From a bacterium (lineage in GTDB: Bacteria; Patescibacteriota; Gracilibacteria; JAUYGZ01), in the NCBI GenBank assembly GCA_030690415.1, contig JAUYGZ010000007.1, forward strand, positions 1-46,439: 46,439 bases of DNA. The letters are read 5' to 3'. Made by a program: the position numbers and the translations under genes. Under the pieces are notes generated by a model. That model was not told the origin of the DNA and made no database searches. It saw only the letters and a list, made by a program, of their open reading frames with translations. This document shows, one piece after another, positions 104 through 8,650 of this stretch (position 1 is the first letter of the stretch; every line of letters begins with the position of its first letter).

Positions 104-892
104 ATGCGCATCCTTTTTCTTGGCGACATCGTAGGACGACCCGGTCGCAATACGGTCCGAGAACTGTTACCAGGCATTATACAGGAAGTGTCTCCTGATC
201 TCATCATTGCGAATGCCGAGAATATCGCGGGTGGGAAGGGGATGAACCGTAAGACAATCCAGGAAATGATGGATCTGGGTATTGATGTGTTCACCGGAGG
301 AAATCACAGTTTCAAAAACACAGAAGGAGTGGAGCTACTCGAGTCAGGTCAATTGCCAGTTCTTAGACCTGCGAACTTTCCAATAGGAACTGCGGGCACG
401 GGCTGGAGAATTGTCAGGTCGAGAAGTGGAAAACGTGTGCTTGTGATCTCTCTCATCGCTCGAATCTTCATGCCTCAATTTGTTGACTCGCCTTTTCAGA
501 GCCTTGAAGATATTTTGAAGTCTGTTTCACCAGGTGACTATGATGCCTCCTTTGTCGACTTTCACGGTGAGGCTACAAGTGAGAAACAGGCGTTGCGCTG
601 GACATTTGATGGGAAGGTGTCAGCCATTGTAGGGACTCATACGCATGTGCAGACAGCCGATGCTGATGTTTCTCAGTTGGGGACGGCTTATGTGACAGAC
701 ACCGGGATGTGTGGATCTCTGGACTCTTGTATTGGAGTCGAAAAAGATATCATCATTCGTCTGATGAAGACCCAAATGCCGGTAACTCATGTCCTCGAGA
801 AGCGCGGACGAATGCAGCTGAATGGAACCCTGATAGATATTGCTGAGGATGGCAAGGCAATGCAGATAGCCATCGTGAGAAAGATCGTTTAA
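104..892 (+). CDS. ymdB: YmdB-family metallophosphoesterase (2',3'-cyclic nucleotide phosphodiesterase)
   Basis: This 262-aa protein matches the YmdB/TIGR00282 family at its usual length. Visible metal-binding motifs are the N-terminal FLGDIVGRPGR (Asp8), NAENIAGGKG around residue 38, GGNHSFK around residue 66, and the two late histidine motifs FHGEA and GTHTHVQT. Family members hydrolyse cyclic nucleotides with a dinuclear metal centre and affect RNA turnover and developmental decisions in Bacillus; in CPR the role is not known. The start follows CTCTC directly with no Shine-Dalgarno sequence. The S41 protease starts only 9 nt downstream, so the two genes are probably co-transcribed. Confidence 0.93.
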   Translation: MRILFLGDIVGRPGRNTVRELLPGIIQEVSPDLIIANAENIAGGKGMNRKTIQEMMDLGIDVFTGGNHSFKNTEGVELLESGQLPVLRPANFPIGTAGTGWRIVRSRSGKRVLVISLIARIFMPQFVDSPFQSLEDILKSVSPGDYDASFVDFHGEATSEKQALRWTFDGKVSAIVGTHTHVQTADADVSQLGTAYVTDTGMCGSLDSCIGVEKDIIIRLMKTQMPVTHVLEKRGRMQLNGTLIDIAEDGKAMQIAIVRKIV

Positions 893-901
893 GATGCCAG
901 C

Positions 902-2074
902 ATGAAACGCCTTTTTACTTTTCTCGTCGTCTCTCTCCTGCTGTTCTTTTCCTATCAGCTGGGTCAGCAGACCATGTTTACCCGTCTTACCCAGTCAACG
1001 GGAGATGGGGTGAATTATAGTATCGCGAATTCTGTCTGGAAGCTTGTTCAGGATCACTACCTCCGAGTCGATGATGTGGATCCTCAGCAAATTAGCTATG
1101 GACTTGCTAAGGGACTTTTATATGCACTTGGAGATATTCACTCCACCTACTTCGAGCCGGATGAGGCTCAGGCTTTCTTTACCTCCTTGAATGGGGAGCT
1201 CCAAGGTATCGGCGCAGAACTGAAGCTCGAGGATGGACTGGTAAAGATTGTCAGCCCCCTGCCTGATTCTCCTGCTGAGAAAGCTGGACTGAGGTCCGGA
1301 GACATTATTTTGAAGGTTGATGGTGGTTATTTGGGCACTGTCAGTAGTCTTGTCGATGTGGTGATGAAGATTCGGGGTCCAAAGGGTTCACCGGTTGTTT
1401 TGACGATAGTACACGAAGGTGAGTCACGATCAGTGGATATTACAATTGTCCGTGATGAAATCCATCTGGAAGCCGTGACCTGGAAACTGGAGGAGTATCA
1501 TGGCGAACAGGTTGCAGTTGTGACGCTTTCTACTTTTACGGAGACTATCGGAGTAGAATTCGAGGCACTCCTGAGTCAGATCCTGGATGCAGGAGTCGAT
1601 AAAATGGTTCTTGACCTTCGTTTCAATGGTGGTGGATATCTAGAGGGTTCTATTAATGTTTTGTCTTCCTTCATCGAAGACGGTCAGCCTGTCGTTTACA
1701 TACGTGACCAGGAAAGCGAGATAGCCAGGAATGCTGAGGGACGCTCAAAACACTTTGACGGTACGGTAGTGGTGTTGGTTAATGAATCTTCGGCGTCAGC
1801 CTCGGAAATCGTCGCGGCTGCCCTTAAAGAGTACGGTATCGCCACGGTAATAGGAGATACCACCTTTGGGAAAGGTACCGTTCAGGAGGTATTTCCCCTC
1901 CCTGATGGCTCCATGCTCAGGATCACGATCGCCGAATGGCTTACTTCTCAGAAGGTCAGTATAGAAGGAGAAGGTGTCCATCCGGACCAAGAAGTGGATA
2001 TGGATTTTGACCAGTTAAAGGAGACAGAATTTGATACTCAAATGGATGCAGCACTCCAGTTTTTGACAAAGTGA
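902..2074 (+). CDS. ctpA: S41-family C-terminal processing peptidase (CtpA/CtpB-like)
   Basis: This 390-aa protein has one N-terminal membrane or signal segment (about residues 4-20), an S41 N-terminal helical region, a PDZ domain (about residues 95-175, with SPAEKAGLRSGD) and the protease core. The catalytic serine is Ser299 in SSASASEI, the lysine is Lys324 in FGKGTVQ, and Gln328 completes the triad. The 25- and 29-residue spacings match the S-K-Q arrangement of CtpB. It should cut secreted or membrane proteins near their C-termini on the outer face of the membrane. It follows ymdB by 9 nt and is followed by the promoter of the infC operon. Confidence 0.94.
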   Translation: MKRLFTFLVVSLLLFFSYQLGQQTMFTRLTQSTGDGVNYSIANSVWKLVQDHYLRVDDVDPQQISYGLAKGLLYALGDIHSTYFEPDEAQAFFTSLNGELQGIGAELKLEDGLVKIVSPLPDSPAEKAGLRSGDIILKVDGGYLGTVSSLVDVVMKIRGPKGSPVVLTIVHEGESRSVDITIVRDEIHLEAVTWKLEEYHGEQVAVVTLSTFTETIGVEFEALLSQILDAGVDKMVLDLRFNGGGYLEGSINVLSSFIEDGQPVVYIRDQESEIARNAEGRSKHFDGTVVVLVNESSASASEIVAAALKEYGIATVIGDTTFGKGTVQEVFPLPDGSMLRITIAEWLTSQKVSIEGEGVHPDQEVDMDFDQLKETEFDTQMDAALQFLTK

Positions 2075-5941: not shown

Positions 5942-7039
5942 TTACAATTTTGATGTGATGAAATCTGTCACCTCCCCCCAAAACCTCTCTTCCGAAAACT
6001 TTTCTGCGTGTTGTTTGATGGCATTGGGATCCCAGGACTGTTTTTCGAACTGCTCTAAGGCTTCGCTGAGGCTTTCGACACTTTGAGAAGAGAAGAAAAG
6101 TCCTGTTTTGCCTTCCACCACACTATCATTGGCGCCGCCTTCGGCATAGGCGATCACAGGCCTGCCGCTGGCCATGCACTCCACGGGGGTGATGCCAAAG
6201 TCCTCGAGTTGGGGAAAGATCAGGGCCTTGCATTCACGATACTCTTTTCTGAGAGCTTCGTCATCCAGGCGGCCGAGGAAAGTAATCGTCTCACCGGCGA
6301 GTTTTTTCAGTCGTGATTCATCCGGACCTGAGCCGACAATGTGGAGCTTCTTCTCTAGCTTATTGAAGGTTTCTATGACGAGGTCGAAGCGTTTGTAGGG
6401 GATCATGCGTCCGACCATGAGGAAATAATCTTTGGGTTCTCCGATGCTGAATTGATCGGTATTCACGGGAGGATTGATGACGGTGGCGTCTCGTCGGTAG
6501 TATTTTTTGATTCGGTCGACAACATAGCTTGAGTTGGCGATGAAGTGATCGACGCGGTCGGCGGTGAGTCGGTCCCAGAGCCGGAGCTTGTGCATTTTTT
6601 TCTTGATGGAGTTGTGCATGAAGCTCGGGAAGGACTTCAATCTGAATTCCAACTCCCAGGGCTCCCAAGCATAGCGCATGGGAGTGTGGCAGTAGCAGAT
6701 GTGGAGAGTCTCCGGCTTGGTGATGATGCCTTTGGCGACAGAGTGACTGGAGCTGATGACGATGTCATATTCGTTTAAGTCGAAAGACTCGACGGCCATC
6801 GGCATGGCGTTTAGGAAGAGGGGATGCTTCTTTTGAGCAAAGGGGATTCGCTGAAGAAATGAGGTATAGATAGTGGCGTTTTCGAAGCCCTGGACTCGTT
6901 TGGCGTCATACAGGGTGGTGTAGATCGGGGCTTTGGGAAACAACCTGTGAAGACTGAGGATCACTTTTTCAGCTCCCCCCATGTTCGTCAGCCAGTCACA
7001 GACGATGGCGATTTTTTTTTCGGGAAATGGGTCAGGCAT
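5942..7039 (-). CDS. GT4-family glycosyltransferase
   Basis: This 365-aa protein is a GT-B fold glycosyltransferase. The N-terminal domain opens with KKIAIVCDWLTNMGGAEKV. The C-terminal nucleotide-sugar domain has YFLMVGRMIPYKRFDLVIE and the GT4 EX7E motif in EDFGITPVECMASGRPVIA. It probably moves a sugar from an NDP-sugar to a glycan or lipid at the inner membrane face. I chose the ATG at 7039, giving MPDPFPEKK, because family proteins begin there and it follows CACCC. An ATG 33 nt upstream would add eleven unconserved residues. The next gene downstream is the pilin-like protein, so the product could be a surface glycan. Confidence 0.88.
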   Translation of the reverse strand: MPDPFPEKKIAIVCDWLTNMGGAEKVILSLHRLFPKAPIYTTLYDAKRVQGFENATIYTSFLQRIPFAQKKHPLFLNAMPMAVESFDLNEYDIVISSSHSVAKGIITKPETLHICYCHTPMRYAWEPWELEFRLKSFPSFMHNSIKKKMHKLRLWDRLTADRVDHFIANSSYVVDRIKKYYRRDATVINPPVNTDQFSIGEPKDYFLMVGRMIPYKRFDLVIETFNKLEKKLHIVGSGPDESRLKKLAGETITFLGRLDDEALRKEYRECKALIFPQLEDFGITPVECMASGRPVIAYAEGGANDSVVEGKTGLFFSSQSVESLSEALEQFEKQSWDPNAIKQHAEKFSEERFWGEVTDFITSKL

Positions 7040-7128
7040 GGGTGAGTTTATTATCCCATTTATCGTAAACATTTTGCGGTCTTTCTGCGACGGGAATGAG
7101 TTGACGGTGTTTTGTTTGGTAGTAAAAG

Positions 7129-7203
7129 TGGTGGACCTCGGGGGAATCGAACCCCATCAACTCGATTGACAAGTCGAGTGGTCAGGTCACTGACACGAGG
7201 CCC
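7129..7203 (-). tRNA. Atypical tRNA, anticodon probably GUC (Asp)
   Basis: The minus strand gives a 7-bp acceptor stem GGGCCTC/GAGGTCC, discriminator A, encoded CCA, and a T arm GGGG-TTCGATT-CCCC. The anticodon arm is CTCGA/TCGAG. Its loop CTTGTCAA has eight nucleotides instead of seven; reading U33 next to the anticodon gives GUC. The D arm is abnormal: GTCAG pairs with CTGAC around a 4-nt loop and the usual G18-G19 is missing. Asp tRNAs normally carry G73, not A73, so the identity is uncertain. It could be a real divergent tRNA or a tRNA-derived element. Confidence 0.6.
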
Positions 7204-7318
7204 ACGCAAAGAAGAGGTTACCATAAGAAAAACCCCTCACAAAATGTGAGGGGTTCGTTCCTGTCAGCAGTTGTGTGCTTGATCAAGACACACAAATGAC
7301 CACTGGACTTGTCAATCG
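7163..7318. repeat. 22-nt inverted repeat linking the tRNA anticodon arm to the glyA leader
   Basis: The tRNA segment read on the minus strand at 7184-7163 reappears on the plus strand at 7297-7318 with 21 of 22 positions identical. The shared core is GACTTGTCAATCG, preceded by TGACCACT. About 112 nt separate the arms, and the terminator hairpin lies between them. A minus-strand transcript of the glyA leader region would therefore be antisense to the tRNA anticodon arm. Confidence 0.7.
7226..7255 (-). terminator. Strong hairpin, terminator in the minus direction
   Basis: A perfect 10-bp stem AACCCCTCAC/GTGAGGGGTT (7231-7240 and 7246-7255) with a 5-nt loop is followed on the minus strand by TTTTTCTTATGG. 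No U-run follows in the plus direction. It would end a minus-strand transcript coming from the glyA leader region, just before the tRNA. No clear protein gene lies upstream of it on that strand. Confidence 0.65.
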
Positions 7319-7405
7319 CCTCAATGATATCAGATCTCTTTTCTCTTTTCAAGCTCAAAAATATCCTTCATAGTAAAATTACCCTACACTCTTACCACAT
7401 CTCGT
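7256..7405 (+). promoter_or_regulatory. Structured leader of glyA
   Basis: This 150-nt gap contains a second hairpin, TTGTGTG/CACACAA (7271-7277 and 7290-7296), with CTTGATCAAG in its loop. It also holds the tRNA-like segment at 7297-7318. No Shine-Dalgarno sequence precedes the glyA ATG. On the minus strand only a 13-codon ORF (7370-7329) is open. I recognise no known riboswitch class here. Confidence 0.4.
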
Positions 7406-8650
7406 ATGTTTGACTCCATCAAGGCACAAGATATGGAAATCTATAATGCCATTGTGGCGGAATGTCACCGACAGCGGGATGGGATTGAGCTTATTCCATC
7501 AGAAAACTATGTTTCTGCAGCTATTCTTGAAGCCAATGGATCAATCTTGACGAATAAGTACTCCGAGGGATACCCTCGCAAACGGTATTATGGTGGACAA
7601 CAAAATATCGATACCATCGAGGAGATCGCCATCGCGAGAGCTAAGGAGCTTTTTGGTTGCGAATATGTGAATGTCCAGCCCTACTCCGGGTCACCGGCGA
7701 ATATGGCGGTTTACTTTGCTTTGCTGAATTTTGGAGACAAGGTCATGGGATTGAAGCTCGATCACGGGGGACATATTACTCATGGACTTCCGATTTCCTT
7801 TTCCGGAAAGGCTTACGAATGGGTTCCTTATCTCGTTGAAGAAAATGGTTTCATTGACATGGATAAGGTCGAAGAGACCGCGCTCCGGGAGAAGCCAAAG
7901 ATGATTGTCGCGGGATTCAGTGCTTATCCCCGAAACATGGACTGGAAGCGGTTCGCTGATATTTGTAAAAAAATTGGTGCTTATTCCTTTGCTGATATTT
8001 CCCACGTGGGAGGTCTCATTGCAGCCGGAGTGATCGAAAGTCCTGTTCCGTACTTTGACGTCGTCATGACGACAACTCATAAGACCCTTCGGGGTCCTCG
8101 ATCTGCCATCATCATGGCCAAGGAGGAGCACGGAAAGGCTATTGACCGAGCAGTTTTTCCCGGGCTACAGGGAGGTCCTCACGATCAGATCACGGCCTCT
8201 AAGGCGATCTGCTTCGAAGAAGCTTTACGCCCCGAATTCAAGCAATATGGAGAACAAGTGATTACAAACGCGAAGGCTCTTGCCGAAGTCTTGCTGAGAT
8301 ATGATTATAATCTGGTCTCGGGTGGAACAGACAATCACCTCATCCTGGTTGATTTGACGAACAAAGGAATTTCAGGAAAGCAGGCCCAGGATTCCCTCGA
8401 CCGTGCTGAGATCACTCTGAATAAAAATACCGTTCCGTATGAAAAGCGATCTCCGATGGACCCCTCGGGAATCCGATTAGGTTCACCCGCTGTGACAACT
8501 CGCGGTTTCAAAGAAAAGGAAATGCAGATGGTCGGGGAGTGGATGCACCGAGTTCTTTCCGATATTGATAACGAAGAAGTCCAGCATCAGGTTGCCGCCG
8601 AAGTCAAAGAGCTGTGTCAGCACTTTCCTGTGGCGGGGACGAGGGTTTGA
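7406..8650 (+). CDS. glyA: Serine hydroxymethyltransferase
   Basis: This 414-aa protein is of normal family length. The PLP lysine is Lys226 in TTTHKTLRGPR. Other family blocks are IPSENYVSAAILEANGSILT, NKYSEGYPRKRYYGG and PGLQGGPHD. It interconverts serine and glycine and makes 5,10-methylene-tetrahydrofolate, a cytoplasmic one-carbon reaction. Its last 47 nt overlap the convergent FecR-domain gene. The start follows CATCTCGT with no Shine-Dalgarno sequence, downstream of a structured leader. Confidence 0.97.
   Translation: MFDSIKAQDMEIYNAIVAECHRQRDGIELIPSENYVSAAILEANGSILTNKYSEGYPRKRYYGGQQNIDTIEEIAIARAKELFGCEYVNVQPYSGSPANMAVYFALLNFGDKVMGLKLDHGGHITHGLPISFSGKAYEWVPYLVEENGFIDMDKVEETALREKPKMIVAGFSAYPRNMDWKRFADICKKIGAYSFADISHVGGLIAAGVIESPVPYFDVVMTTTHKTLRGPRSAIIMAKEEHGKAIDRAVFPGLQGGPHDQITASKAICFEEALRPEFKQYGEQVITNAKALAEVLLRYDYNLVSGGTDNHLILVDLTNKGISGKQAQDSLDRAEITLNKNTVPYEKRSPMDPSGIRLGSPAVTTRGFKEKEMQMVGEWMHRVLSDIDNEEVQHQVAAEVKELCQHFPVAGTRV

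Follow-up and report, generated by a model that had tools for sequence, protein, structure and literature searches.

A tRNA-like structure and a predicted antisense RNA beside glyA

We analysed a 46,439-nucleotide stretch of a genome of the class Gracilibacteria (contig JAUYGZ010000007.1; hereafter the window) that carries, beside the serine hydroxymethyltransferase gene glyA, a non-canonical "tRNA" on the minus strand at positions 7129–7203 and, close by, an inverted copy of its anticodon-like arm. We name this RNA and its relatives tRNA-like structures (TLSs). The 75-nt window TLS has a perfect 7-bp acceptor stem (GGGCCTC, 7203–7197, with GAGGTCC, 7139–7133) and bears the tRNA-Ala identity elements, a G3-U70 pair, A73 at 7132 and an encoded CCA at 7131–7129, which are those established for alanyl-tRNA synthetase (AlaRS). 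As read from the sequence, the T-arm is TGGGG-TTCGATT-CCCCC (7140–7156) and the anticodon-like arm is ACTCGA-CTTGTCAA-TCGAGT (7160–7179), with 6 bp and an 8-nt loop at 7173–7166; the minimum-energy fold of the TLS alone gives a different anticodon-like arm of 8 pairs, two of them G-U, with a 5-nt loop. A miniature D-arm, GTCAG-TGAC-CTGAC (7181–7194), consists of five pairs and a 4-nt loop without GG. The preliminary description of this locus had called the element a tRNA, and the tRNA-like body holds but the canonical tRNA does not: ARAGORN calls no tRNA in the window, the TLS scores 25.7 bits against the Rfam tRNA family RF00005 (cut-off 29) and 30.5 bits against Rfam tRNA-Sec (cut-off 47) with no long variable arm, and in place of the canonical 7-nt loop on a 5-bp stem it has 8 nt on 6 bp, other members having loops of 8 to 14 nt or bulged arms. 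The window genome (1.45 Mb in 30 contigs, 98.8% complete) contains 43 tRNAs above cut-off, among them an ordinary tRNA-Asp(GTC) and two tRNA-Ala, and a separate transfer-messenger RNA (tmRNA; C18:30467-30919), so the TLS is not required for reading the code. We rejected a piece of tmRNA as its identity, since TLSs are 69 to 77 nt long and have no mRNA-like region, and the real tmRNA lies elsewhere.

Positions 7297–7318 (minus strand, CGATTGACAAGTCCAGTGGTCA) form an antisense segment to TLS positions 7163–7184 with 21 of 22 nucleotides complementary, as the preliminary description had noticed; this is the single such pair found by repeat search in 7000–7500, its one mismatch is a transversion that breaks one base pair, and its identity score of 19 compares with a maximum of 17 among 252 controls matching a TLS to the flank of another. 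On the minus strand, a promoter at 7352–7324 (TTGAAA, 17-nt spacer, TATCAT, TG before the -10 box; 10 of 12 matches) is the sole promoter-like site in 7050–7450, and an intrinsic terminator at 7256–7230 (12-pair stem, 3-nt loop), just upstream of the TLS, is the sole terminator-like site; each is weak taken singly because shuffled sequences average 0.7 and 0.4 such sites. The terminator region (7216–7262) folds at -22.3 kcal/mol (z -4.3). Since the -10 box ends 6 nt ahead of the copy, the predicted small RNA (sRNA) starts with the antisense segment; it would continue through an internal hairpin, TTGTGTG...CACACAA (7271–7295, read from the sequence and the fold), and end at the terminator, 26 nt short of the TLS, giving about 90 nt at 7228–7317 with both ends inferred. 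At the level of sequence the locus thus shows the features of an antisense sRNA: a promoter of its own, complementarity to a target RNA and a terminator. The two hairpins that the preliminary description had placed between the segments are there, and its suggestion that a minus-strand transcript would pair with the anticodon arm and stop at the terminator agrees with the position of both signals.

The divergent neighbour glyA (7406–8650, plus strand; NF000586, 583.7 bits, cut-off 335) is not counted as part of the module. The copy had been placed in a glyA leader that, on the plus strand, might mimic the tRNA and couple tRNA state to glyA expression. We found no promoter toward glyA upstream of the copy in 7050–7450, where the sole promoter-like site points the opposite way, and no sign that the glyA mRNA, whose gene starts at 7406, takes in the antisense copy, which is probably no glyA leader; the plus-strand mimic is not supported. 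Nor is a coupling to glyA: the genes adjoining TLSs change from locus to locus, with glyA in the window, dus and ppdK at a second TLS of the same genome and pheT and rsmE at the TLS L057 (the latter two loci read by eye). That the arrangement is not a T-box riboswitch stands, as we found no Rfam gathering match in the window and no T-box up to E 5 in 6950–7500.

TLSs recur with a conserved alanine identity

The second TLS of the window genome (L002; C12:200565-200639), found by BLAST upstream of ppdK, is accompanied by an inverted copy of 16 nt from its arm, followed by a hairpin and next a terminator. Two TLSs in relatives, L056 and L057, were reached by BLAST through their T-arms, and their loop copies, in direct orientation beyond a terminator, were noticed only later. 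BLAST, covariance models R1 and R2 and a pattern scan yielded 46 distinct TLSs, identical sequences being counted once, and about two-thirds of them were found without reference to any antisense copy. The pattern required U70, A73, CC and GUCA in the rows that it supplied; G3 was not required, save in a few rows from one further search. It gave 51 matches in 29 of 353 genomes of the class, not all verified, and the copy tests below cover the matches that had loci or were found by other searches. Two of the 46, L235 and L241, lie outside the class; at L235 a cobalamin riboswitch (841–968, minus strand) stands just upstream of the TLS of genome G688. A wide contig scan with the pattern gave, among the matches listed, mostly tmRNA ends and normal tRNAs; the TLS-like ones were L095 and L128, whose TLS sequences are those of L085 (G066) and L074 (G272), and the doubtful L150. 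The last (JAPYNO010000110.1, 5744–5815, a Pseudomonadales metagenome-assembled genome) has a GGATTGTCAC loop and no convincing antisense copy, and could be misbinned. Before counting we dropped L205 (no acceptor partner), L065, L068 and L069 (tRNA-Ala), L150 and L250, and L084, a position artefact of L213, was left uncounted. Type 2 or canonical-D variants (L082, L083, L051, L052, L239 and L244) were examined separately, outside the 46; L206 and L224 resemble these variants yet were kept, and L245 was omitted from the pair count, which covers 45 TLSs.

All 45 TLSs have G3-U70, A73 and a paired acceptor, and 41 end in ACCA. Acceptor pairs 4 to 7 vary in type while 178 of 180 cells remain paired, and the lack of A3-U70 in pattern-found rows is informative because the pattern required U70 and A73 but not G3. 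The variable loop measures 0 to 3 nt, most D-loops hold GG, and the acceptor/T branch has 12 pairs, divided 8/4 in the window and L002 and mostly 7/5 in other members. In the anticodon-like arm, 8 to 9 pairs interrupted by a bulge are frequent. Loops of 8 nt with the form NUYGUCAN are common. The covariance models recovered both GUCA and other loops, the latter in L002, L057, L066, L072 and L073, with GATAC, AGCACC, AACACC and CGACAA in L057, L066, L072 and L073, respectively. The Rfam tRNA cut-off is passed by L067 (35.6) and by the type 2 relatives L051 (49.4) and L052 (47.1), and ARAGORN takes L085 for a tRNA with the four-base anticodon "cgtc".

Antisense pairing is conserved in four orientations

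In a blind comparison, identity copies scoring at least 11 lay within ±300 nt of 33 of 43 TLSs, versus 5 of 252 TLS-versus-other-flank controls. When G-U pairs are allowed, an antisense helix of at least 13 occurs within 300 nt in 36 of 46 TLSs, compared with 16 of 364 cross-pairs and 4 of 45 normal tRNAs taken from fetched loci; these four are a TLS-like variant (L083), a tRNA-Ala with a tandem copy (L065), a phage-like contig (L250) and a tRNA-Ile (L012). Among the 41 TLSs with a helix of at least 12, 24 have a convergent partner and 6 a divergent one; in the remainder the partner shares the strand of the TLS, lying downstream in 7 and upstream in 4, the latter being the arrangement of the window. 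Because orientation is free, pairing between RNAs is favoured over a DNA repeat. An exact TATAAT lies near the antisense start in 19 of the 41 (4.5% of random positions), and a hexamer with at least 5 of 6 matches is found in 31 cases, beginning 9 to 12 nt ahead of the antisense start in 23 of them. Where TLS and copy differ, 15 transitions retain a G-U pair and 2 break the pair (p=0.0012), with 5 transversions besides, and the median cofold gain is -15.1 kcal/mol for own pairs versus -2.3 for cross pairs. Together, the helix counts, the orientations, the TATAAT positions, the G-U-keeping differences and the cofold gains are evidence, drawn from sequence comparison, for selection on RNA–RNA pairing, and equal pairing at many other loci lends further weight to a predicted minus-strand antisense RNA in the window.

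Complementary flanks outside the acceptor, with at least 7 Watson-Crick pairs, accompany 20 of 46 TLSs versus 20 of 453 cross-pairs. At two loci with a convergent sRNA, L066 and L072, the sRNA region also complements the TLS 3′ end (copies of CACCTCCACCA and CCTCCACCA), so the sRNA might pair at both ends in the manner of a T-box.

Promoter boxes in relatives are shared with DNA-uptake and recombination genes

Sequence upstream of TLSs repeats itself every 11 bp (lag-11 self-match z 12.8 over 41 TLSs) with the unit TKTMAG-N5, and a three-unit array scoring at least 15 precedes 20 of 46 TLSs, nearly all in the convergent arrangement, versus 0.3% of shuffles. A scan of nine genomes for the box unit with one mismatch gave 44 matches in 7 genomes versus 4 for the reversed pattern, and L253, L277 and L299 are further array-preceded TLSs. 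The box stands before ssb in all four family f17 genomes examined (G052, G066, G272 and G273) and, as non-coding matches, before dprA (G273), yifB/comM (G036) and recA (G006); some matches precede several unnamed genes, and others fall within reading frames and are probably chance. Arrays also precede two proteins that are related by eye and have an HNH-like end, at L295 (G052) and L297 (G066), and the one at L295 matches no NCBIfam family. The OmpR-type DNA-binding domain PF00486 is present in 13 of 14 genomes examined and missing from the window genome; in the class genomes G211 and G212, several in-frame TGA codons lie within the PF00486 matches, as would fit a recoding of TGA in these lineages. 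A Pho regulon was rejected in favour of a putative DNA-uptake regulon, PF12849 (PstS-type) being found in 0 of 8 genomes. At L208 and L234, and more weakly at L209, a palindrome AGTGTACGTTCGTACACT lies just upstream of the TLS, between it and a divergent sRNA; we take it to resemble a LexA-type operator, which would place these copies under another stress regulator.

A model for an antisense-controlled tRNA mimic

We consider it likely that the window holds one copy of a two-RNA module in which an alanylatable, non-decoding tRNA mimic would be controlled by an antisense sRNA. Both RNA genes, their pairing and its conservation, the promoter and terminator signals and the shared boxes are seen in the sequence. 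The TLS, if transcribed, would be alanylated, as its G3-U70, A73 and CCA suggest, and these identity elements are likewise given in PMC7609411; normal decoding is probably precluded by the length of its anticodon arm or the size of its loop. The sRNA would be transcribed from a promoter of its own and end at its terminator, and its 5′ end, complementary to the loop and to one side of the anticodon-like arm, would bind at the 8-nt loop, spread into the arm and inactivate the TLS. Once the TLS is induced above the level of the sRNA, free alanylated TLS would act, most likely on the translation apparatus given its tRNA body plan. In most relatives, induction would come from a promoter with tandem 11-bp activator boxes common to DNA-uptake and recombination genes; this link comes from shared boxes in relatives and is not applicable to the window genome as it stands. 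A broader proposal, tentative and open to considerable doubt, is that the pair represents a new class of regulator in the Candidate Phyla: an alanylated, non-decoding tRNA mimic that an OmpR-type regulator may switch together with DNA-uptake and recombination genes, that would act on the translation apparatus as a growth brake or rescue factor in transformation, and that the antisense RNA would hold in check between episodes, while the pair would persist in another arrangement in lineages that have lost this regulator, the window genome among them.

Several observations weigh against the two-RNA module as we read it. Five of the 46 TLSs (L064, L218, L077, L226 and L230) have no helix of at least 12, L230 lying at a contig end and L064 and L077 carrying short copies at the usual place, and controls reach this threshold in 34 of 364 comparisons, so that any one weak case could have arisen by chance. 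A mere 26 nt lie between the sRNA terminator and the window TLS, which bears on how the TLS is transcribed. No TLS was detected in the two same-family genomes G001 and G002; the preliminary description had counted absence of the copy from close relatives among its refuting conditions, and the outcome is mixed, as the family gives no TLS but the arrangement recurs in the window genome itself, through L002, and in many genomes of the class. The window genome also has no 11-bp boxes (0 in the scan) and no PF00486 regulator, so the regulon argument rests on relatives.

The best-surviving alternative, which we regard as possible rather than probable, is a toxin-antitoxin-like unit: alanylated TLS would slow or poison translation, for instance by tying up AlaRS, EF-Tu or the ribosomal A site, with the sRNA as antitoxin, and the pair would serve as a growth brake during DNA uptake or persist as a selfish addiction unit. 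Several copies per genome at unrelated places (G066, G272 and G052), the patchy distribution of pattern matches in the class, the strong, constitutive-looking sRNA promoter and an adjoining RNA with about 20 nt of complementarity, as in small type I systems, all fit such a unit. So does the lack of a recurrent neighbour: BLAST of open reading frames (ORFs, taken from stop to stop) up to 1.5 kb from the 46 TLSs gave one four-locus cluster (L073, L076, L220 and L227) and otherwise pairs only, many of them orthologous contexts, and a conserved protein partner was rejected on these grounds. Co-regulation with ssb, recA and dprA, however, suggests a physiological role over pure addiction.

It is unlikely that the sRNA is instead an effector on other mRNAs, with the TLS as its stable, inducible sponge. 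The many conserved pairs, and streptococcal csRNAs, which stand under a similar 11-bp direct repeat (PMC3091779), would suit this arrangement; however, sRNA 5′ ends differ among copies of one genome while the acceptor end stays intact, which a sponge would not need. Quite unlikely, too, is a dedicated alanine donor, in which the TLS would feed a non-ribosomal reaction such as peptidoglycan or lipid aminoacylation, or C-terminal tailing in rescue, with the sRNA tuning its level. All TLSs keep alanine identity despite an abnormal decoding arm, and the non-proteogenic tRNA-Gly of Staphylococcus is a precedent, yet no transferase gene recurs beside the TLS, a tmRNA is separately present in the window genome, and the link to recombination genes would be left unexplained. 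We think it improbable that the TLS still translates as a regulated frameshifting or misreading alanine tRNA with an 8-nt loop and four-base anticodon (YGUC): the NUYGUCAN loops of many members and the ARAGORN reading of L085 point that way, but the arm is often a bulged one of 8 to 9 pairs, the loop varies (L057, L066, L072 and L073) and, for some of the set, the pattern itself had required GTCA.

We find it scarcely credible that a degenerate tRNA gene owes its inverted copy to recombination, as a scar, an attachment site or an invertible segment. Integrases often use tRNA genes, and L250 and L012 show tRNA-segment repeats of such a kind, but the copies occur both as direct and as inverted ones at short, fixed distances, lie between a promoter and a terminator, differ in ways that preserve G-U pairs and have no recurring recombinase family beside them. 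At L012 itself a 15-nt segment of tRNA-Ile(GAT) is repeated next to the tRNA gene, at 1449 and 1524 (75 nt apart), and may be a scar of attachment or duplication. L250 (IMG/VR contig, 1299–1373, minus strand) contains a gene resembling tRNA-Asp, which ends in A73 CCA and has an attachment-like 15-nt repeat of its anticodon arm upstream, as well as an integrase-like ORF. It was the one pattern match in viral contigs and is an ordinary tRNA-like gene on an actinophage-like contig outside the TLS family, and a viral origin was rejected.

Relation to known systems

The review PMC7609411 describes allo-tRNAs, tRNA-Sec-like tRNAs (Mukai 2017), as having an unusual cloverleaf, a small D-loop, in some a G3:U70 pair, and GUC among the common anticodons; they are mostly of serine type with longer variable arms, come from Clostridia, Proteobacteria and Acidobacteria, and in some cases are unusable for translation, with a guessed tie to transposons or toxin-antitoxin systems. 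TLSs share the unusual cloverleaf, the 12-pair acceptor/T branch (8/4 in the window and L002) and the small D-loop, but most of them divide that branch 7/5, their variable loop is nearly absent and their anticodon-like arm is long and bulged. They also have a predicted antisense partner, and none is mentioned for allo-tRNAs in the review, where the word "antisense" does not occur. The TLS resembles tmRNA (ssrA) in its alanine identity through G3-U70, its tRNA-like end and its apparent lack of ordinary decoding, but differs in having a true D-arm hairpin and no mRNA-like region. Type I and type VIII toxin-antitoxin RNA pairs (IstR/TisB, SdsR/RyeA and CreTA) are stable adjoining pairs with about 20 nt of complementarity outside any shared overlap. 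The module resembles them as a stable adjacent RNA pair with short complementarity, a likeness drawn from sequence alone, but here the controlled RNA would be a tRNA mimic and not an mRNA.

The csRNAs of streptococci are preceded by direct repeats TTTAAG-N5-TTTAAG bound by an OmpR-type regulator linked to competence, CiaR (PMC3091779), and the 11-bp box before TLSs resembles these repeats. The csRNAs do not resemble tRNAs and lack an antisense RNA of their own; at least three TKTMAG units are common before TLSs, for which an OmpR-type regulator is a candidate only. A T-box riboswitch likewise pairs with the anticodon arm of a tRNA beside a terminator, but in the module the pairing extends over as many as 22 nt and involves a dedicated tRNA mimic, and the sRNA terminator is not followed by an aminoacylation-related gene. 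We found no comparable RNA pair in the literature searched, most subscription papers being beyond reach, so that absence from print is not established; within that literature the parts (alanine identity, antisense sRNA and OmpR-type boxes) are familiar and the combination is not. If true, the model means that a tRNA body has been reused as a regulator or toxin, and the boxes at ssb, dprA, recA and comM in relatives would offer a regulatory handle on natural transformation in uncultivated Patescibacteria, for which, to our knowledge, regulators of the process are hardly known. All pieces of the module are short RNAs, which makes the idea testable in vitro and in E. coli.

A type 2 module, with a canonical-looking D-arm, is found at L051 and L052 in the window genome and at L082, L239 and L244, and its upstream RNA bears two antisense segments, one for each half of the arm. 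L051 (G000:C23:65296-65371) and L052 (G000:C12:77244-77319) resemble tRNA-Ser(TGA) genes with short arms; both bear G3-U70 and have antisense segments upstream.
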